Shown here: positions 1-14,515 of the stretch, piece after piece | Layout: every line of letters starts with the position of its first letter | Numbering within the stretch: position 1 is the first letter of the stretch | From: Ochromonas danica | Taxonomy: Eukaryota > Sar > Chrysophyceae > Chromulinales > Chromulinaceae | Direction: 5' to 3' | Assembly (NCBI GenBank): GCA_015146655.1 | Contig: VKHL01000188.1 | Span: 19,703 to 49,797 of the forward strand | DNA: 30,095 nt | Made by a program: the position numbers and the translations under genes | Notes under the pieces: model-generated | Database searches by the model: none | Seen by the model: the letters and a program-made list of their open reading frames with translations, nothing else | What the model was told of the DNA's origin: nothing

Positions 1-1597
1 ACAGATGGAAGATGTCCTTCACTCGATCCAGATAGATTTCCTCTCGCATATCCTCTGGAATTACCGCAGACAGATCCACTCTCACTGCTCGCTCCACACA
101 TTCCAACGCTGCCGCCGCATTCCCCGCAGGATAGTCGCAGACATGAGATGGCAACTTCTCTGACAGATAGGCATGCTGGGAACGATATCCAGCCTCCAGC
201 TGAGGCTGAGAGTAGACTGGATTGATAAACAGACAACCCACTGACACTGCATCCAGGGCACTGGGACCTAACAGAGGATGACCCAAACCCAACAAGAAGC
301 GAGACCCAGCCAACAGCTCTAACCAAGCTTCAGGTCGCAAGTGACCGGCGAAGGAGATGTTCGCATGCACAGGGAGAACTCCCCGGGACACAGAGGGAGA
401 CAAGGTCGTCACCAAAGGAACATGATCAGCCAGGATCTTGATGAAGGAGGAAGACTGAGCGAAGTGTTTGGGATCCTTACCCCAGATCACCCCCTGGAGC
501 TGTTTGACCTTTCTCCTCCTCTCACTACTGCTGCTACCCTTCTCTACCCCTCCAGATGCGCCACCAGCTGATGAGAACACTGACGGCGACCAGGACAAAG
601 ACAGTCGCTCCTGTGGAATCTTGTAGCCCAGGAAGGTGTTCCAAGGGGTGGGGAAAGCAGTCAAGAAGTGCTTCGGAGAGATCTCGGGCCAGTGACCCTT
701 CAAGCGAGACGCTCCGAAGAAGTCCAGCAAGTAGATCTTCTCCTCCAGACCCAACAACTGCCTCTTCGGCCTCCACCCCTTCATCGCCCACGTCCACGGA
801 TCTAACAAGATGATCCTGTAGTCACGCAACGGAGTGTTGTCGAAGGCCGCGTCACTCCCCAGAACAGTCACACTCAGACCCAACGATGCAAAGGCTTCTT
901 CCAAACTGTGTCGAATGATCAGCTCTCCAGCTGCTCCACCTCGTTTACTGTTCTCCTCATAGGAGGGGATGGAGTCCATGGTGAAGATGCAGACTTTGCC
1001 GTTGCTCTTGACCTTCGCCTTGGAAGGACGAGGAGCAGCAACAGTAGCAGAAGAAGAAGAAGAAGAAGAAGAGAGAAGAGGAGTCTGTGCTGGATCAAGG
1101 ACTGAGGATGATGAGGAAGAGGAAGAGGAGGAGGATCGAGGAGGTCGTTGCCGAGTCAAGGGTTGGACTACTTGCTGACCATCACCAGAGGCTGAAGCTG
1201 AGGCAGAAGGCTTCGATAATGACTCCGTGGGAGGAGTGACGACAGCATCATCAGCCCTGCCTGAAGAGTCCTGCTTAGACTTCATCTCCTTCTTCAGTCT
1301 CTCCAGTCCCTCGCGTAAGCGAAAGAGAGTATCGTTCAGCTCTGCCGCGAGGTTAACTTCACTTGTTTCACTCTGTTGCGCCTTCTGCTTTTGCTGCTGG
1401 CTGGCTGCGCTTGCGCTTGTGCTTGTTCTTGTGCTTGTTCCTGAGCCTGCGACTATCACAGTGTCTATGACTGTGTCTGTAATGGCTGGGTTACTAACTG
1501 GATAGGGAGGATCCAAATGGTGATGAAGAGAAAGGAAGTGGAGAGAAGCTAGGAGAAGGGCTAGGAGGAATAAGGTGATGAGAACATTTCTCATCAT
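1..1597 (-). CDS. MGAT5-like GT18 glycosyltransferase, left copy (3' edge cut by window)
   Basis: This is the inverted copy of the gene at 2197-3795 and encodes the same protein, with its ATG at 1597-1595. All 532 sense codons are present; only the last bases of the stop codon fall outside the window. The domain description is given under the right-hand copy. The two genes diverge from the centre of the palindrome with the tRNA genes between them. Because the arms match so closely, both copies would make the same enzyme if both are really in the genome; a fold-back assembly error would give the same picture. Confidence 0.85.
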   Translation of the reverse strand, partial: MMRNVLITLFLLALLLASLHFLSLHHHLDPPYPVSNPAITDTVIDTVIVAGSGTSTRTSTSASAASQQQKQKAQQSETSEVNLAAELNDTLFRLREGLERLKKEMKSKQDSSGRADDAVVTPPTESLSKPSASASASGDGQQVVQPLTRQRPPRSSSSSSSSSSSVLDPAQTPLLSSSSSSSSATVAAPRPSKAKVKSNGKVCIFTMDSIPSYEENSKRGGAAGELIIRHSLEEAFASLGLSVTVLGSDAAFDNTPLRDYRIILLDPWTWAMKGWRPKRQLLGLEEKIYLLDFFGASRLKGHWPEISPKHFLTAFPTPWNTFLGYKIPQERLSLSWSPSVFSSAGGASGGVEKGSSSSERRRKVKQLQGVIWGKDPKHFAQSSSFIKILADHVPLVTTLSPSVSRGVLPVHANISFAGHLRPEAWLELLAGSRFLLGLGHPLLGPSALDAVSVGCLFINPVYSQPQLEAGYRSQHAYLSEKLPSHVCDYPAGNAAAALECVERAVRVDLSAVIPEDMREEIYLDRVKDIFHL

Positions 1598-1733
1598 CGT
1601 TGGAAAGGAGAAGCTGGAGCTGGATAATTGGTGATAGAAGAGGGAGGGTCATGGAGAGTAAAGTGAACAATTGATGGGAAGGGAAACAGCACTAAGAGTG
1701 TTTGTATTGTGCTGCTGTGTAACGTTTAACATC

Positions 1734-1805
1734 TCCTCGTTAGTCTATCGGTTAGGATATGGCCCTTTCAAGGCTGAGAGCCGGGTTCGATTCCCGGACG
1801 AGGAA
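1734..1805 (+). tRNA. tRNA-Glu (TTC), left copy
   Basis: A full cloverleaf can be drawn. The acceptor stem is TCCTCGT with ACGAGGA, seven pairs. The D arm begins GTCT and has the GGTTAGG loop. The anticodon stem TGGCC/GGCTG (with G-T pairs) encloses loop CTTTCAA, giving anticodon TTC. The T arm is CCGGG-TTCGATT-CCCGG. The B box GGTTCGATTCC fits the Pol III consensus exactly, and an A-box-like sequence overlaps the D arm. The discriminator base is A and no CCA is encoded, as expected for a eukaryotic nuclear tRNA. The gene is intron-less. Confidence 0.95.
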
Positions 1806-1811
1806 AGATCC

Positions 1812-1815
1812 TTTT
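1812..1815 (+). terminator. Pol III T-run terminator of left tRNA-Glu
   Basis: TTTT lies 7 bases after the discriminator base, the usual place and minimum length for RNA polymerase III termination. Confidence 0.7.
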
Positions 1816-1852
1816 GCAATTTTCTGAAGATCCTAGTATATATTTCCAAGAG

Positions 1853-1937
1853 TGTTGTTATTTATGTCAATTTCAATTCTGTCGGTCATAATGAAGACTT
1901 ATGAAAACAGCCATCAAATAAGACTTATAACTAAGAT
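1853..1937. other. 85 bp spacer at the centre of the inverted repeat
   Basis: This single-copy, A/T-rich sequence lies between the two arms. It is not self-complementary, so the junction is asymmetric. It contains a 9-base direct repeat AAGACTTAT at 1894-1902 and 1920-1928. No gene is visible in it. Confidence 0.85.
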
Positions 1938-1978
1938 CTCTTGGAAATAAATATATACTAGGATCTTCAGAAAATTGC

Positions 1979-1982
1979 AAAA
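1979..1982 (-). terminator. Pol III T-run terminator of right tRNA-Glu
   Basis: AAAA on the plus strand (TTTT on the transcribed strand) lies 7 bases past the tRNA end, mirroring 1812-1815. Confidence 0.7.
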
Positions 1983-1988
1983 GGATCT

Positions 1989-2060
1989 TTCCTCGTCCGG
2001 GAATCGAACCCGGCTCTCAGCCTTGAAAGGGCCATATCCTAACCGATAGACTAACGAGGA
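1989..2060 (-). tRNA. tRNA-Glu (TTC), right copy
   Basis: Mirror copy of the tRNA at 1734-1805 with the same sequence and cloverleaf. The two tRNA genes point at each other across the spacer. Each sits head-to-head with its neighbouring GT18 gene, with 136 bases between the tRNA 5' end and the GT18 ATG. Confidence 0.95.
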
Positions 2061-2196
2061 GATGTTAAACGTTACACAGCAGCACAATACAAACACTCTT
2101 AGTGCTGTTTCCCTTCCCATCAATTGTTCACTTTACTCTCCATGACCCTCCCTCTTCTATCACCAATTATCCAGCTCCAGCTTCTCCTTTCCAACG

Positions 2197-3795
2197 ATGA
2201 TGAGAAATGTTCTCATCACCTTATTCCTCCTAGCCCTTCTCCTAGCTTCTCTCCACTTCCTTTCTCTTCATCACCATTTGGATCCTCCCTATCCAGTTAG
2301 TAACCCAGCCATTACAGACACAGTCATAGACACTGTGATAGTCGCAGGCTCAGGAACAAGCACAAGAACAAGCACAAGCGCAAGCGCAGCCAGCCAGCAG
2401 CAAAAGCAGAAGGCGCAACAGAGTGAAACAAGTGAAGTTAACCTCGCGGCAGAGCTGAACGATACTCTCTTTCGCTTACGCGAGGGACTGGAGAGACTGA
2501 AGAAGGAGATGAAGTCTAAGCAGGACTCTTCAGGCAGGGCTGATGATGCTGTCGTCACTCCTCCCACGGAGTCATTATCGAAGCCTTCTGCCTCAGCTTC
2601 AGCCTCTGGTGATGGTCAGCAAGTAGTCCAACCCTTGACTCGGCAACGACCTCCTCGATCCTCCTCCTCTTCCTCTTCCTCATCATCCTCAGTCCTTGAT
2701 CCAGCACAGACTCCTCTTCTCTCTTCTTCTTCTTCTTCTTCTTCTGCTACTGTTGCTGCTCCTCGTCCTTCCAAGGCGAAGGTCAAGAGCAACGGCAAAG
2801 TCTGCATCTTCACCATGGACTCCATCCCCTCCTATGAGGAGAACAGTAAACGAGGTGGAGCAGCTGGAGAGCTGATCATTCGACACAGTTTGGAAGAAGC
2901 CTTTGCATCGTTGGGTCTGAGTGTGACTGTTCTGGGGAGTGACGCGGCCTTCGACAACACTCCGTTGCGTGACTACAGGATCATCTTGTTAGATCCGTGG
3001 ACGTGGGCGATGAAGGGGTGGAGGCCGAAGAGGCAGTTGTTGGGTCTGGAGGAGAAGATCTACTTGCTGGACTTCTTCGGAGCGTCTCGCTTGAAGGGTC
3101 ACTGGCCCGAGATCTCTCCGAAGCACTTCTTGACTGCTTTCCCCACCCCTTGGAACACCTTCCTGGGCTACAAGATTCCACAGGAGCGACTGTCTTTGTC
3201 CTGGTCGCCGTCAGTGTTCTCATCAGCTGGTGGCGCATCTGGAGGGGTAGAGAAGGGTAGCAGCAGTAGTGAGAGGAGGAGAAAGGTCAAACAGCTCCAG
3301 GGGGTGATCTGGGGTAAGGATCCCAAACACTTCGCTCAGTCTTCCTCCTTCATCAAGATCCTGGCTGATCATGTTCCTTTGGTGACGACCTTGTCTCCCT
3401 CTGTGTCCCGGGGAGTTCTCCCTGTGCATGCGAACATCTCCTTCGCCGGTCACTTGCGACCTGAAGCTTGGTTAGAGCTGTTGGCTGGGTCTCGCTTCTT
3501 GTTGGGTTTGGGTCATCCTCTGTTAGGTCCCAGTGCCCTGGATGCAGTGTCAGTGGGTTGTCTGTTTATCAATCCAGTCTACTCTCAGCCTCAGCTGGAG
3601 GCTGGATATCGTTCCCAGCATGCCTATCTGTCAGAGAAGTTGCCATCTCATGTCTGCGACTATCCTGCGGGGAATGCGGCGGCAGCGTTGGAATGTGTGG
3701 AGCGAGCAGTGAGAGTGGATCTGTCTGCGGTAATTCCAGAGGATATGCGAGAGGAAATCTATCTGGATCGAGTGAAGGACATCTTCCATCTGTGA
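2197..3795 (+). CDS. MGAT5-like GT18 beta-1,6-N-acetylglucosaminyltransferase
   Basis: Single exon, 532 residues. An N-terminal signal anchor (residues about 4-24, LITLFLLALLLASLHFL) suggests a type II Golgi membrane protein. A stalk follows with a probable coiled coil (about 78-107) and two poly-Ser runs (155-165, 176-183). The catalytic region spans about 201-532. The best motif is GLGHPLLGPSALDAVSVGC followed by FINP (from 437), which matches the GLGFPYEGPAPLEAIANGC-type segment of animal MGAT5. RGGAAGELIIR and the LLDFFG, LTAFPTPWNTFLGY stretches also fit family GT18. MGAT5 adds a beta-1,6 GlcNAc branch to N-glycans using UDP-GlcNAc; the same reaction here is inference. A hypothetical protein of another GT-B family is possible but less likely. 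Confidence 0.85.
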   Translation: MMRNVLITLFLLALLLASLHFLSLHHHLDPPYPVSNPAITDTVIDTVIVAGSGTSTRTSTSASAASQQQKQKAQQSETSEVNLAAELNDTLFRLREGLERLKKEMKSKQDSSGRADDAVVTPPTESLSKPSASASASGDGQQVVQPLTRQRPPRSSSSSSSSSSSVLDPAQTPLLSSSSSSSSATVAAPRPSKAKVKSNGKVCIFTMDSIPSYEENSKRGGAAGELIIRHSLEEAFASLGLSVTVLGSDAAFDNTPLRDYRIILLDPWTWAMKGWRPKRQLLGLEEKIYLLDFFGASRLKGHWPEISPKHFLTAFPTPWNTFLGYKIPQERLSLSWSPSVFSSAGGASGGVEKGSSSSERRRKVKQLQGVIWGKDPKHFAQSSSFIKILADHVPLVTTLSPSVSRGVLPVHANISFAGHLRPEAWLELLAGSRFLLGLGHPLLGPSALDAVSVGCLFINPVYSQPQLEAGYRSQHAYLSEKLPSHVCDYPAGNAAAALECVERAVRVDLSAVIPEDMREEIYLDRVKDIFHL

Positions 3796-4160
3796 TGATT
3801 TTTTTGTAGTGTACTAGGTTGTGTTTGCGTAGAGTGTGTCTTTGTTTTCTGAGGTATTGGTGATGTATTTCTATAACGGTTGATTATGGAGGAGTTATTA
3901 AGACTTGTGGAATATCATTGTGTAGTGAAAGTTCGCGTCCCTCTCACCCTGTTGTTGCTCCCTTTTTAAATGCGATGGCAATTGTGTAAAAGTCCGTACA
4001 CTATGTCGCTATGTACACTTTGTTTACACTATGTCGCCAAGCCACCACTAACAATATCGACTTAAAAGTTGAGTAATTAAGGTTTTGTTATTGCCAAGTA
4101 AGACTTCCGGCAGCTGCCTGCGTCGTTCCACCATTCATTCAATCGAAATTCTTCACTGTC
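3796..4160. other. Intergenic, GT18 to methyltransferase
   Basis: No gene is visible. A 13-base direct repeat TACACTATGTCGC occurs at 3997-4009 and 4025-4037, within the presumed upstream region of the methyltransferase gene. Confidence 0.6.
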
Positions 4161-4967
4161 ATGACAGCAAAGCAGTCCAACTCTAACTGGGAAACAGAGC
4201 TCTTTCCAAGTGATGAACAAGCTAGTTCTATTCGAGTAGGACAGCGTTTAGGAGTGCCTTATACTCGATCCCTGCAAGAAAGTCTTTCCATCCATTTACC
4301 TGCCTGTCCTCAAAATATGCAACAACTGGTCGTCGCACAGGATGGATTTGGTGTCTTAGCCATTTCTGGGGTAGTCTGGGATTGTGCACTTCTAATGGCT
4401 GACTATCTACATCATCTTCTATCTAGTGGGTCATCTCTTCCATCTATCTCCACTGTATTGGACTTGGGATGTGGCACAGGAATATGTGGATTGATTGCAG
4501 GACATCTCTTCCATCCATCTACTTTGGTCTTCTCTGATAAGCATCAAACATCTAGTCTAGAAAGCAATCGAGATCTTCTATCCTCTGAGCTGAAGGAGTC
4601 TAACCCTGCTGCTGCTACCTATGGTGTATTCATAGCCTATGACTGGAGCGAGCCTTGCTTGCCTTCCCTTTTAGCTGATACTCCATGGGATATCGTGCTT
4701 TGTAGTGACTTACTCTATGATGCCAAATATCACTCTGGTCTACTACATTGCTTACAAAGTCTGTCATTTCAACGCATTCTTCTGACTTACAAGAAACGCC
4801 ATGAGGAAGAAGAGAAGGTCTTCTTCTCTCAATTGGCAACTTTCTGTAGCTTAAGAGTGATTCCAATCGATAGCTTTCCTTCGATTAATCTACCTGATAG
4901 TTGTCGAAGTGCCTTGTATTTGATCGAAGCAATCCCTCTTTCATCCTCCGCCAATCCCACAGTTTGA
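4161..4967 (+). CDS. METTL21-type (Methyltransf_16) protein methyltransferase
   Basis: Single exon, 268 residues, a usual length for this family. Motif I of the SAM-binding Rossmann fold is VLDLGCGTGICGL (residues 99-111). An upstream GVVWDCALLMADYL (70-83) matches the G-x-VWD-x-A-x-x-LA pattern of METTL21/FAM86-type enzymes. DIVLCSDLLYD (177-187) corresponds to the D-x-x-Y substrate-site motif, and LLTYKKRHEEEEKVFF (207-222) to the strand and helix that follow. The family methylates lysines on chaperones, elongation factors or VCP using SAM; which target applies here cannot be told. The protein is probably soluble, with no signal peptide or membrane segment. The ATG at 4161 opens the frame with no in-frame alternative nearby. 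Confidence 0.85.
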   Translation: MTAKQSNSNWETELFPSDEQASSIRVGQRLGVPYTRSLQESLSIHLPACPQNMQQLVVAQDGFGVLAISGVVWDCALLMADYLHHLLSSGSSLPSISTVLDLGCGTGICGLIAGHLFHPSTLVFSDKHQTSSLESNRDLLSSELKESNPAAATYGVFIAYDWSEPCLPSLLADTPWDIVLCSDLLYDAKYHSGLLHCLQSLSFQRILLTYKKRHEEEEKVFFSQLATFCSLRVIPIDSFPSINLPDSCRSALYLIEAIPLSSSANPTV

Positions 4968-5085
4968 AAATAGATACAAGGATATTGGGTCATTACAAGA
5001 ATGATAACACACTACCAAGTCATCTACGAATAATACATTTGAAAATGCTAGAAGAAGAGCAATAAAGTGAAAATTGTCATCTTAT

Positions 5086-5851
5086 CTAAGCCTCCATGGT
5101 AACAGAGAGCACCTTAACAGGTGTACGAGGACGATCATTTCGATCTGAAGAATATCCATGGAATGAGACAGAGTTAGTGTACTGTGTGACCTGGAAGAGA
5201 ATAAGATATAACTTTGTGATTTCACTCACCAGTTGGGGTTCTGTTGATGTTGTTCACCACAGTCATGCCCTCCACTATCTTGCCGAACACAGGGTGCTGA
5301 GAAGGAGTAGACTTGTCCCAGAAATCCAAAAAGCTGTTGTGGACAGTGTTGATGAAGAACTGAGATCCACCAGAGTTAGGTTGACCAGTGTTAGCCATGG
5401 AGAGAGTGCCAGGCTCATTGGAGAGTCTGGGGCAGCCAGGTTCACGGAACTCATCAGGGATGGAGCCATCATGAGTTCTAGTGACAGTCTTGGTGGTGCC
5501 ATCCTTAGCCACATAGGTGTATTGAGTGTTAGGCTTAGGTCCACCAGTGCCAGCACGTGCATTGTTAGCCTCAAAAGAGTAAGGACAGCCAAACTGGTTC
5601 ATGAAGTTAGGAATGACACGGTGGAAGTGCAGACCATTGTAGAAGCCAGAGTTCACCAAGTCAATGAAGTTAGCTATACAGTAAGAGAAGAGATGGTCAT
5701 TGGTCAGCAGATGACAGCCTGGCCTGACATAGACATAGCCTAGCAGAGGTCAGAGGGAGTTCTTACCAGCTGTGAGAGGCATCTGCTCGACATAGACCTC
5801 CACCTTGAAATCTCCCATAGAGGTCTTGAAGACAGCTTTAGGATTGGGCAT
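5086..5851 (-). CDS. Cyclophilin-type peptidyl-prolyl isomerase, copy A
   Basis: Three exons on the minus strand: 5851-5767, 5673-5230 and 5144-5086, joined by GT-AG introns of 93 and 85 bases, giving 195 residues. The protein starts [20 protein letters not shown] and ends [15 protein letters not shown]. The catalytic core is clear: [15 protein letters not shown] holds the Arg, Phe, Met and Gln equivalent to R55, F60, M61 and Q63 of cyclophilin A, followed by [18 protein letters not shown] and [15 protein letters not shown]. The position of cyclophilin A Trp121 is Phe (NSFLDFW), and about seven residues are inserted before the active-site His. No targeting signal is seen, so a cytosolic or nuclear proline isomerase and folding helper is likely. 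It is a tandem duplicate of the gene at 6725-7493, with the same exon lengths. Confidence 0.93.
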
Positions 5852-6045
5852 GATGATGATAGAGACAGAATAAAGAAGAAGAAGAAGAAGAAGAAGGAAG
5901 AACTGAATAAGAAAGTGAAATTGCTTGCTTGCTGTTTGCTTGTTGTTTCCTTCTCCTTCTCTTCTTCACCGTTCTTGCTCACTGCAAGAGGTTGGGGAGT
6001 CACTTCAACTCCACGCAGACATGGATGTGCTCATGAAGTCTGACC

Positions 6046-6197
6046 GTACAGGCTTTTCGTATTTCGGGATTTTCGTGCTGATAAAACGCGTTTAACAAGT
6101 CGTTTTACGTGTGGTTTGTTGGATGAGCTGCTCGTTTTATCCCGAAAATCCCGAAAATCGCGCTAAACGAAAATCCCGAAATACGAAAAGCCTGTAC
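6046..6197. repeat. GTACAGG palindromic element, copy 1 (152 bp, MITE-like)
   Basis: The ends are perfect 31-base inverted repeats, 6046-6076 and 6167-6197, starting GTACAGGCTTTTCGTATTTC. Inside lie further complementary pieces (GATAAAACG near 6079 and CGTTTTATC near 6133, plus GGATTTTCG and CGAAAATCC), so either strand can fold into a long hairpin. It is rich in CpG compared with its flanks and has no coding potential. The palindromic 4-mer GTAC at both ends could be a target-site duplication or part of the terminal repeat; a single locus cannot decide. Confidence 0.85.
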
Positions 6198-6218
6198 GGG
6201 GCGACTTCCAGCGTGTGC

Positions 6219-6333
6219 GTACAGGCCTTTCGTATTTCGGGATTTTCGTGACGATAAAACGCGTTTAACAAGTCGTTTTCCATGTGGTTTGCGCGTTTTA
6301 TCCCGAAAATCGCGCTAAACGAAAAGCCTGTAC
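6219..6333. repeat. GTACAGG palindromic element, copy 2 (115 bp, internally shortened)
   Basis: This is the same element as 6046-6197, in the same orientation, 21 bases downstream. The left end is about 31 bases long with one C/T change. The right end keeps only the last 15 bases because a 16-base segment flanked by ACGAAAA is missing, as expected from slippage between short direct repeats. The inner pair GATAAAACGCG (6253-6263) and CGCGTTTTATC (6292-6302) is perfect over 11 bases. Confidence 0.8.
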
Positions 6334-6724
6334 CGTCCGCGTGAGTGGGGTGGTGTGTGTGTGTGTGTTTGTTCACTTGTTTTCGGTTTTGGGAAAGTGG
6401 CGGTTTCGTGGTGGGATGAGCTGAGCTGAGCTGCTGGTGTTGTGTTGGTGTTTTTGGCTACACTTCAACGGATAGTATTATTGAAGATCTGCTATACTAT
6501 ATATGTTGAGAATAAGGAACTGGTTCATAGTGTTTGGAAAAGAGTCCATCGTCTTGCTTTCAACACACCACATATAATTCAAGGAGAATTCTACACAATG
6601 CAAGCATTGTCCACAACGATCATTATTGACAGATTGCCAAAGTTCAAGAATTAAGATCGAGCGTTCCGACACTGCAGCTACCGCGCTAACGAGAGAGTAG
6701 CTGAGCAAGTCATGAAGGCCCTTT

Positions 6725-7493
6725 TTAAGCCTCCATGGTAACAGAGATGACCTGAACAGGAGTGCGGGGACGATCGTTTCTATCTGTTGAAGTCACAATG
6801 AAAGTTAAGTAATTGAAGAGAAAACAACATCAAGAAAGAGAACAAGCAGCAGACACTCCACACAGACAGAAACAGGTCCACTCACCAGTTGGGGTTCTGT
6901 TGATGTTGTTCACCACAGTCATGCCCTCCACTATCTTGCCGAACACAGGGTGCTGAGAAGGAGTAGACTTGTCCCAGAAATCCAAAAAGCTGTTGTGGAC
7001 AGTGTTGATGAAGAACTGAGATCCACCAGAGTTAGGTTGACCAGTGTTAGCCATGGAGAGAGTGCCAGGCTCATTGGAGAGTCTGGGGCAGCCAGGTTCA
7101 CGGAACTCATCAGGGATGGAGCCATCACGAGTTCTAGTGACAGTCTTGGTGGTGCCATCCTTAGCCACATAGGTGTAGGTGGAGCCACCTTGAGGTCCGC
7201 CAGTACCAGCTCTCTGGGAGGCAGGATCACGGGAGTGAGGGCAGCCAAACTGGTTCATGAAGTTAGGAATGACACGGTGGAAGTGAAGACCATTGTAGAA
7301 GCCAGAGTTCACCAAGGCAATGAAGTTGCCTGATCAAGGAAGATTCAAAGTTGGACAATTAACGTCTCTCTTCACGGAAAACCATCAAATAGAAACGTTT
7401 CTTCTTACCAGCAGTGAGAGGCATTTGATCAACAAACACCTCCACCTTGAAGTCACCCATGGTGGTCTTGAAGACAGCTTTAGGATTGGGCAT
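6725..7493 (-). CDS. Cyclophilin-type peptidyl-prolyl isomerase, copy B
   Basis: Three exons on the minus strand: 7493-7409, 7329-6886 and 6783-6725, joined by GT-AG introns of 79 and 102 bases, giving 195 residues. It starts [20 protein letters not shown], and exon 2 opens with [20 protein letters not shown]. Active-site residues and the Phe in place of Trp121 are the same as in copy A. Exon 2 is nearly base-identical to copy A apart from the loop segment ([19 protein letters not shown] here, [19 protein letters not shown] there), while the introns and flanks are unrelated. It is probably cytosolic or nuclear. Its 3' end faces the upstream region of copy A. Confidence 0.93.
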
Positions 7494-8129
7494 GATTAAT
7501 GATGATAGTTGTTGTTGGATAACAAACTGTGACCATAAAGAGAGAGGGAGGGTTGATCATCACAGACACACACAGACAACAGATGACAACAGGCAGGCAC
7601 ACAACACCACTGCACCACACAAACACCGGAACAGAACAGAGAACACTGCCACACACGCATGCCACATGTCTCCGTTGACACTAACCCCATGCAATAGCAA
7701 TATTCCCAACAATACAAAACAACATTCTTGATTCAAATCTGACACTCCCAAGATTCGAAAAATAAAGAGATTTGGTGTCATTGTAGGAACAACACAATGT
7801 TTTGTGTCGATACATGTGGTTCATAGTGATATATGGATATCTCTTGTGTGGATAAAATGACTGGGACGACCTGTGTAGAAAATGAACTCTTTAGACATGA
7901 AAACGTTTAAGCCTATCCATACTGCTTAACTATCATCATATTCTTAAGCAAGTTAATAAACAAAGATTATTAATCTATGGGAGGGACTTCCCTCAAATAG
8001 CAGCATTTCCTGAGTGATACGATCAGTCAACGAACAGTATATCCTCGTCAACTTATCCCTTTCGATAACTCTATCAGCAAGTAAACAACATGGAAGACAA
8101 CCACTACAGCCTTCACTCACTATGACAGA
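7494..8129. other. Intergenic, cyclophilin B to ENT transporter
   Basis: It contains the presumed promoter of cyclophilin B and the 3' flank of the transporter gene. A CA/AC-rich stretch lies at about 7560-7640. No supported gene is seen. Confidence 0.5.
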
Positions 8130-9524
8130 CTACCAGCTGTCTAACCAAGCTTTCAACACCAAAGCGAAGGTGGAGCCTATTACTAATCCAAAGTTTAAGA
8201 AGAAGCCAGTCAAGCCACCCACTCGACCTTTGTCTTTCACTTCCACCATCTCATTGATCATCATCACGACAAGCGAGCCTATATATCCATTGCTCCAGCC
8301 TAAGAGACTAACCAAGAGAAGAGAGAGAAGGTCATTGCGGAAGAAAGACATCCCCTTCGACGAGCCAATGAGACAGGGAATGAGTAGAAGTCTCAAATAG
8401 ACCCATCGATCAATATTGTCCTTGGTCAGTCCCATACGATGACTTGTCCACCATCTGCCCAGACAGTCCATCACTGCGAAGAGCAACAAGAGTATGAGCG
8501 ACCACCACCGACCTTCTTCCAGAGCTGGGAGGTGGGAGTAGCATGGAATCTCTGTCAAAAGAGGAGGCCAAAGCAAGAGCGTTGAGGCAAAGAGAAGCAC
8601 GACCAAGAACTCGTGATAGCCCACCTTGCCCAACAAAGTCCATTGATCGAGTGGGGCATCAGAAGGTGGGAGAGAAGTGATCGCTTTGGCCGAAGGAGAG
8701 GTAGCAGCGGAGGAGACGCCAGCTGCTGCTACATCCTCTGCATCATCATCCGCCAAGAAGGCAGTCGACTCCTCATCCAGACTGCCATAGGAAGCCACAC
8801 CCCCTCCCCCTCCGCCTGCTCCCACTACAACAAGACTTTGCTCTTCATGATGGTGATCAAGATGCGAGAAATGTCTCTTAGAGATGGGCAGAGCGAGGAG
8901 GTGGTAGAAGACGAAGATACACCCCACGAGAGTGACTGCACCCACATAGAAATACAACAATGATGAGAGAACCACTTGATCTGCTGCGAAGAAGGCCTTG
9001 GTTAGGATGCGGTAGATTGATCCCAATAGTGTGCTTAGGCCAATGCCCAGCTGTAGTCCCTCCTGCACTCGACTGGGATAGTGTGCGGCAAAGCCAATGG
9101 CCACGCTATCCACCAGCGCTGTCACTGTCGCAGCAAAGGCAGTAGCTAGCATGACAGCAAGATAGTAATGATTCTCTGATAGGTGCAAGAAGTAGAGAGA
9201 AGGCACGAGGAGAAGGACGAGGGTTTGTCCTAGGAATCCACCAATAATACGGAAATGATACGATGGTTGTCTACCAAGGAAGACAAGAAAGCCTAAGAAT
9301 AAAAGGTTGACCCACATATAAAGGGTTGTGAGAGGAAACTCGATGTTGAAATCTGGGAATTCGTGTGTCCAATAGTCAACAGGCTGAGTGAGGGCGGAGA
9401 AGGGGAAGAGATAGCCCACGCCTACAATAGCCATGAGCATGGCAGCTGTACTCACTTGCTTTGCTTCATCTTCTTGAGGTAGTTTAGGATTCATGTCATT
9501 TGATCGATTCATTGTGGATGTCAT
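8130..9524 (-). CDS. Equilibrative nucleoside transporter (ENT/SLC29 family)
   Basis: Single exon, 464 residues, a typical ENT length. Eleven or so hydrophobic segments are visible: six before a long hydrophilic loop (about residues 215-298) and five after it. Family hallmarks are GVGYLFPFSALTQPVDYW in segment 1 (residues 35-52), DCLGRWW (353-359), GWSNGYIGSL (409-418) and GLTGFFLNFGLVIGS (437-451). The central loop contains a His-rich run, a poly-Gly run (237-242) and acidic stretches. ENT proteins carry nucleosides or nucleobases down their gradient or with protons; substrate and membrane cannot be told from the sequence. It diverges from the Qa-SNARE gene across 545 bases. Confidence 0.88.
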   Translation of the reverse strand: MTSTMNRSNDMNPKLPQEDEAKQVSTAAMLMAIVGVGYLFPFSALTQPVDYWTHEFPDFNIEFPLTTLYMWVNLLFLGFLVFLGRQPSYHFRIIGGFLGQTLVLLLVPSLYFLHLSENHYYLAVMLATAFAATVTALVDSVAIGFAAHYPSRVQEGLQLGIGLSTLLGSIYRILTKAFFAADQVVLSSLLYFYVGAVTLVGCIFVFYHLLALPISKRHFSHLDHHHEEQSLVVVGAGGGGGGVASYGSLDEESTAFLADDDAEDVAAAGVSSAATSPSAKAITSLPPSDAPLDQWTLLGKVGYHEFLVVLLFASTLLLWPPLLTEIPCYSHLPALEEGRWWSLILLLLFAVMDCLGRWWTSHRMGLTKDNIDRWVYLRLLLIPCLIGSSKGMSFFRNDLLSLLLVSLLGWSNGYIGSLVVMMINEMVEVKDKGRVGGLTGFFLNFGLVIGSTFALVLKAWLDSW

Positions 9525-11849: not shown

Positions 11850-12909
11850 TCATGCGTCTACCTCTTGGTCAGCATCGCCACTTCGATGGCCTCCATCCTC
11901 ACGCTTGCGCTTCTTGCCTTTACCACCTTTGCCTCCGCCTTTCGTCGTCTCTCGTTCCTTAAGCTCTTTGCAGGCCATTCGCTGGGCTTCATTGACACGC
12001 TCGAGCAGCACCAAGACTGCCTCCTCCTCTGCGGGATACTATTAGTCCACATACACACACACACGCAGGCACGCGCACAATACACACATATCACTCAAGA
12101 GGGTACAGGGCAGCATGTTAGATATGAGATGATGATTACCGCGGGTAGCTTCTGTTCTAGCAATGCTTCCAATCGCTGGTATGCCTCTACATCATATTGA
12201 GTAACGAAGCTGACAGCACGACCTGCACGTCCAGCACGTGCTGTTCGACCCACTCTATCCAAAGAGAGAGAGAGAGAGAGAGAGAGTGTGTGTGTGGTAA
12301 CAAAGGAGACGAGGAAGAAGAGGGTAACTAGGTAGACTAGCTAACCTGTGCACATAGTCCTTGGCATTGACAGGAAGATCAAAGTTGACTACTAGATCCA
12401 CCTCAGGAATATCCAAACCTCTCGCAGCAACATCTGTAGCAATGAGAAGGTTTCTCCCTCCTGTCTTGAACTTATTCAATGCACCCAATCGCTTGGCTTG
12501 AGACATTTGGCCATGAAGACAGACTGCACCCCAGCCAAGGTTACGTAATAACAACGTGGTTCTCTCTGCTTGTTGGCAGGTTGCTACGAAGAGAATGGTA
12601 CTTTGTCCTCTCAAGTCATCGAGTAAGTAGGCAAGGTAACAATCCTTCCACTTTGCTGGCATGAAAAGATACTGTTGGACGAGAGCCTTTGGGGTTTGGA
12701 ACTGTGTGGAGACTTCCAATCTCACAGGGTTCTATTATAAGACAGAAGACTCATACTAAGCACGAGTGGTAAAGGAGGGATGAAGAAGGGGGTCTCTACC
12801 TGTAGGGAGGCTTTCTGTAGCTTGGCTACTTTCTGTGTCATGGTAGCACTGTAGAGGAAAGTGCGCCTCTCACTGGGCAGAACAGACAAGATCTCTGTGA
12901 TCTCCTACT

Positions 12910-12990
<81 letters not shown>

Positions 12991-14468: not shown

Positions 14469-14515
<47 letters not shown>

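Follow-up and report, generated by a model that had tools for sequence, protein, structure and literature searches.

An inverted duplication of a GT18-like gene around facing tRNA-Glu genes in the genome assembly of Ochromonas danica

In yeast, DNA breaks near natural inverted repeats yield inverted duplications centred on those repeats, as described in PMC10622511, and template switching by replication at short inverted repeats is called frequent in PMC11790251. As reported in PMC10164571, lengthening the spacer of an inverted repeat from 12 to 100 bp lowers recombination in double-stranded DNA by about 300-fold, and spacing matters little in single-stranded DNA. Among the titles and abstract openings searched, we found no description of tRNA-seeded inverted duplications in an alga, although absence from such text does not prove that none has been published.

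Here we describe a locus in which a GT18-like gene and a tRNA-Glu gene occur as mirror-image copies. The stretch of DNA analysed, referred to below as the window, comprises 30,095 nucleotides of contig C188 (C188:19703-49797) from the assembly of Ochromonas danica (GCA_015146655.1), and genome searches covered 31.19 Mb in 337 contigs. The positions of the features are collected in Table 1.

Anatomy of the mirrored segment

Comparison of positions 1-1845 of the window with positions 1949-3793, both by repeat search and by direct string comparison, shows that they are reverse complements over 1845 nt with 100% identity. There are no mismatches, even in the microsatellites of serine codons. This confirms a preliminary description of this DNA, in which a GT18-type gene and a tRNA-Glu gene were said to be duplicated in inverted form, base for base. 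The gap-free arms reported by the repeat search are 103 nt apart. If one 4-bp indel is tolerated, pairing extends to 1852 and restarts at 1938, leaving 85 unpaired bases (1853-1937), the same centre that had been proposed previously. The asymmetry of the palindrome is limited to this indel and these 85 bases. Everything is mirrored except the loop, and an anatomy of this kind, in which two extended and identical inverted arms enclose a small asymmetric centre, fits a fold-back.

The arm length of 1845 bp is a lower bound, because window base 1 pairs with base 3793 and C188:1-19702, directly to its left, reads as N at every position, which puts the outward limit of the left arm out of view. In a genome search outside C188:1-19702, the only full-length match to the right flank (positions 3794-8500) is the flank itself. 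A chance repeat was ruled out by the arm length, with 1845 paired bases lying within 30 kb.

Table 1. Features of the mirrored segment in the window and inverted tRNA arrangements on other contigs.
Feature	Position	Strand	Remarks
Left arm	1..1845	-	100% reverse complement of 1949-3793; outer end out of sight
Right arm	1949..3793	+	100% reverse complement of 1-1845
Spacer between gap-free arms	1846..1948	.	unpaired centre 1853-1937 if one 4-bp indel is allowed
tRNA-Glu (TTC)	1734..1805	+	ARAGORN; Rfam RF00005, 56 bits
tRNA-Glu (TTC), facing the first tRNA	1989..2060	-	ARAGORN; Rfam RF00005, 56 bits
GT18-like gene, 532 aa in one open frame	2197..3795	+	ORF, Pfam, PDB match
GT18-like mirror copy	1..1597	-	532 codons readable; stop codon beyond window edge
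Core tRNA-Glu/spacer/tRNA-Glu, 337 bp	1729..2065	.	identical to C1:138468-138804, opposite orientation
tRNA-Arg	C162		inverted pair; arms 271 bp, 99.6%
tRNA-Met	C155		inverted pair; arms 233 bp, 100%
tRNA-Val	C20		inverted pair; arms 151 bp, 98%
tRNA-Phe	C20		inverted pair; arms 88 bp, 100%
tRNA-Gly	C61		inverted pair; arms 137 bp, 97.8%
Four copies of one tRNA	C19:132775-143707		alternating orientation; best pair 380 bp, 99.7%

Reading outward from the centre, each arm contains a tRNA-Glu gene followed by the 532-aa GT18-like frame. The two tRNA genes, both of which form a cloverleaf with a TTC anticodon (ARAGORN, Rfam), face each other, and the two GT18-like genes point apart from starts at 1597 and 2197. 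Their predicted proteins are identical at all 532 of 532 residues. The open frame scores 58 bits against the Pfam profile Glyco_transf_18 (cut-off 28), with the match running from residue 357 to 469 of 532 and from profile position 265 to 376 of 557, and MGAT5A chains in the PDB also match the protein (E 1.5e-7; 5zic, human-type). The N-terminal half is of low complexity and serine-rich. No additional GT18 copy was found in the genome, where the two matches correspond to the two arms (11 of 11 candidates scored). The likely outcome is a locus in which both the tRNA-Glu gene and the GT18-like gene are doubled, the GT18-like copies being transcribed divergently from start codons 600 bp apart.

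As a single strand the 337-bp core folds far better than shuffled versions of itself (z -32). We found no decayed inner palindrome in the spacer, as positions 1856-1938 fold no better than shuffles (z -0.46). The locus had been called cruciform-prone, a description that is weak for double-stranded DNA given a centre of 85-103 bp, close to the 100-bp spacing that is inefficient in PMC10164571. Given the small effect of spacing on single-stranded DNA in that study, a fold-back could still take place here.

The window has several other repetitive features. A fold-back repeat at 6044-6220 (6035-6076 / 6167-6208) has many genomic relatives, up to 98-99% identical, and resembles a family of small non-coding transposons. 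Positions 5467-5785 have a 76% relative on C21, and parts of this stretch recur on C80 in either orientation. At 12908-12990 and 14470-14514 there are long microsatellites, (CA)n and (TG)n, about 1.5 kb apart and of opposite sense.

The shared core and other inverted pairs

The preliminary description, sound as to the duplication itself, missed both a second copy of the core elsewhere in the genome and the recurrence of inverted tRNA pairs. The copy is on contig C1, and the match ends within one base at either side. On C1 the core sits in a separate, smaller palindrome in which 130 bp of that contig's own flank are exactly mirrored on each side; beyond these the two sides differ and the DNA is unrelated. 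The C1 palindrome is far from the ends of its contig, which is 659,643 bp long, and is bordered on both sides by unrelated DNA; the 4-bp asymmetry of the centre is present there in identical form. A shorter tRNA-spacer-tRNA palindrome is therefore seen on C1 in other flanks, and not as an unduplicated form of the C188 locus. Two further tRNA-Glu(TTC) genes, on C38 and C2, are solitary within the flanks retrieved and have no such spacer. An identical core is compatible both with a real event and with an assembly artefact.

Neighbouring tRNA genes of the same type were collected from a partial genome sample (63 of 1363 candidates scored, together with the first 100 of 168 matches), taking genes no more than 6 kb apart, a limit chosen after looking, on contigs taken as nuclear. 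The window, tRNA-dense contigs, organelle-type contigs (recognised on partial evidence) and self-complementary pattern matches were left out, and a possible pair on C70, about 5.2 kb apart, is outside the count. Ten of the 20 pairs are inverted and ten direct. Inverted pairs share a median of 166 bp of flank beyond the tRNA (15, 17, 65, 73, 158, 174, 188, 199, 200 and 282 bp) and direct pairs 28 bp (2, 4, 8, 13, 27, 29, 37, 40, 60 and 60 bp), a difference with a Mann-Whitney p of 0.005, or 0.006 with one value per cluster, in a comparison devised after seeing the data and in which pairs of one cluster are not independent.

Identities of the other inverted tRNA pairs range from 97.8 to 100%. 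The longest tRNA arm match after that in the window is 380 bp, on C19, where flank lengths are bounded by the 600-bp pieces compared; none measured comes near 1845 bp. The tRNA gene concerned is 98 nt long, was found by Rfam and missed by an ARAGORN run without introns, and has long common flanks in its copies. On C155 (27000-34500) there are two nested inverted repeats, both 100% identical: the inner one of 233 bp contains the tRNA-Met genes, and the outer one of 148 bp, without a tRNA, lies around an asymmetric centre. The tRNA-Arg core of C162 was looked for elsewhere in the genome and not found again, so that sharing of cores is no general rule. The core common to C188 and C1, taken with the recurring inverted tRNA pairs, points to tRNA genes as the seed of the duplication.

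At C94:42200-45450, in the interior of a 109-kb contig, a protein-kinase gene (Pkinase, 84.8 bits) is duplicated in inverted orientation, with arms of 1187 bp that differ by one mismatch and a centre of 659 bp. In a genome search, the kinase arm matches only itself and its mirror. ARAGORN and Rfam detected no tRNA in this duplication, which was dropped from the pair count.

Among the organelle-type sequences in the assembly, C202 and C303 carry plastid-type genes, each including one for a plastid-type ribosomal protein L1. The two L1 sequences are different, and on this basis the one assembly may contain a mixture of two plastid genomes. C303 also encodes members of the psaF, cytochrome c550 and rubrerythrin families (the rubrerythrin-family gene is presumably acsF-like), and NADH dehydrogenase genes of mitochondrial type are found on C214. 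Such a gene content would suggest a photosynthetic eukaryote with a plastid of the red line, or a culture in which one is present.

Origin of the duplication

The preliminary description had named a recent event, gene conversion and an assembly fold-back as possible causes and left the choice between them undecided; we judge this to be the right set. We lean towards a recent and real inverted duplication in the nuclear genome, formed by fold-back or template switching and seeded by facing tRNA genes. Two tRNA-Glu genes facing across a spacer of about 100 bp would constitute a ready-made inverted repeat. A nearby broken or stalled DNA end could fold back at the tRNA stem, or a new strand could switch template there, and synthesis would then copy the adjoining GT18 gene in mirror image, with the spacer staying as the sole asymmetric part. 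Given the same core on C1, either C188 would already have carried such a facing pair, or a break would have occurred at a single tRNA-Glu gene, with the spacer and second tRNA copied from C1 before the fold-back. We infer the fold-back or template switch, the order of events and the presence of the structure in the chromosome.

Counting for a real event are the perfect arms around an asymmetric centre, the C1 core with mirrored flanks of its own, the bias towards longer shared flanks in inverted tRNA pairs, and the duplication on C94. Counting against it, the left arm has no visible unique DNA on its outer side, and the 100% identities are also predicted by mis-assembly. The arms of the other measured tRNA pairs are far shorter, the C162 core is not shared, two of the ten inverted pairs have only 15-17 bp of flank in common, and the flank test is post hoc.

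The principal rival is that the assembler passed through a C1-like 337-bp core, with its spacer and second tRNA, and exited into the same arm reversed. The true locus would in that case have one GT18 gene and one tRNA-Glu gene, or else the tRNA pair with other left-hand DNA. We give this explanation substantial weight, while thinking it somewhat improbable. It agrees with a C188 core that is letter-identical to that of C1, with arms free of mismatches over 1845 bp including the serine-codon microsatellites, and with a left outer junction that is out of sight; in one other locus (L014), a gap of precisely 10 N may in addition signal short-read scaffolding. However, it demands both a join at the tRNA and double use of the entire arm, and a contig break is the commoner outcome when an assembler meets such a repeat. 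Imperfect inverted pairs and one kilobase-scale inverted duplication also sit inside other contigs, and the imperfect copies indicate that structures of this kind exist in this genome. Because an assembler leaving the core into a mirrored arm predicts the same two perfect identities, we hold a real duplication to be probable only to a modest degree.

A wider form of the preferred reading, that facing tRNA pairs act as recurrent seeds, is more speculative and in our view rather unlikely. A broken tRNA locus would borrow the spacer and second tRNA of C1 and fold back, and the tRNA-spacer-tRNA core would in this way move among loci, mirroring the local flank each time and on occasion whole protein genes.

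We consider it very unlikely that the inverted duplication is older and that gene conversion has held its arms identical and homogenised the cores of C1 and C188 as well. Conversion among tRNA copies would account for the identical core, and the 97.8-100% identity of other inverted tRNA pairs is in keeping with it, but the C94 kinase and C162 pairs already differ at one to two positions in shorter arms, so conversion is not holding every pair identical. A turned-back single read or an amplification chimera in the consensus can be set aside almost entirely. Whole-genome amplification is known to produce palindromic chimeras (PMC6218980), but a simple turn-back has no 85-base unpaired centre, whereas the centre here does not pair and recurs on C1 with the same 4-bp asymmetry.

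Comparison with described systems

If the structure is real, it is a fresh natural inverted duplication that has doubled a protein gene around tRNA genes, in a genome whose series of inverted pairs, varying in length and identity, could allow the successive steps to be traced. If it is an artefact, it cautions that an assembler can be led to mirror a gene by tRNA palindromes present at more than one locus.

The encoded protein resembles the GT18/MGAT5 N-acetylglucosaminyltransferases in passing the Glyco_transf_18 cut-off and matching MGAT5A chains, and differs from them in matching only part of the profile and in its serine-rich N-terminal half. As to the duplication, it shares with the fold-back duplications of yeast described in PMC10622511 a position centred on an inverted repeat, one that at this locus is presumed to pre-date the event, and a spacer that is the only unique centre. 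In the yeast strains tested, the seed was an imperfect repeat of 11 bp with a spacer of 6 bp, whereas the seed proposed here would consist of two facing tRNA genes and a centre of 85-103 bp. Origin-dependent inverted-repeat amplification (ODIRA) offers a second parallel, in that template switching at an inverted repeat likewise leaves an inverted junction. However, ODIRA typically produces three copies, the triplication being inverted and having two junctions that surround a replication origin, whereas at the locus described here, whose left side reads N, the visible sequence shows a single junction and two copies.
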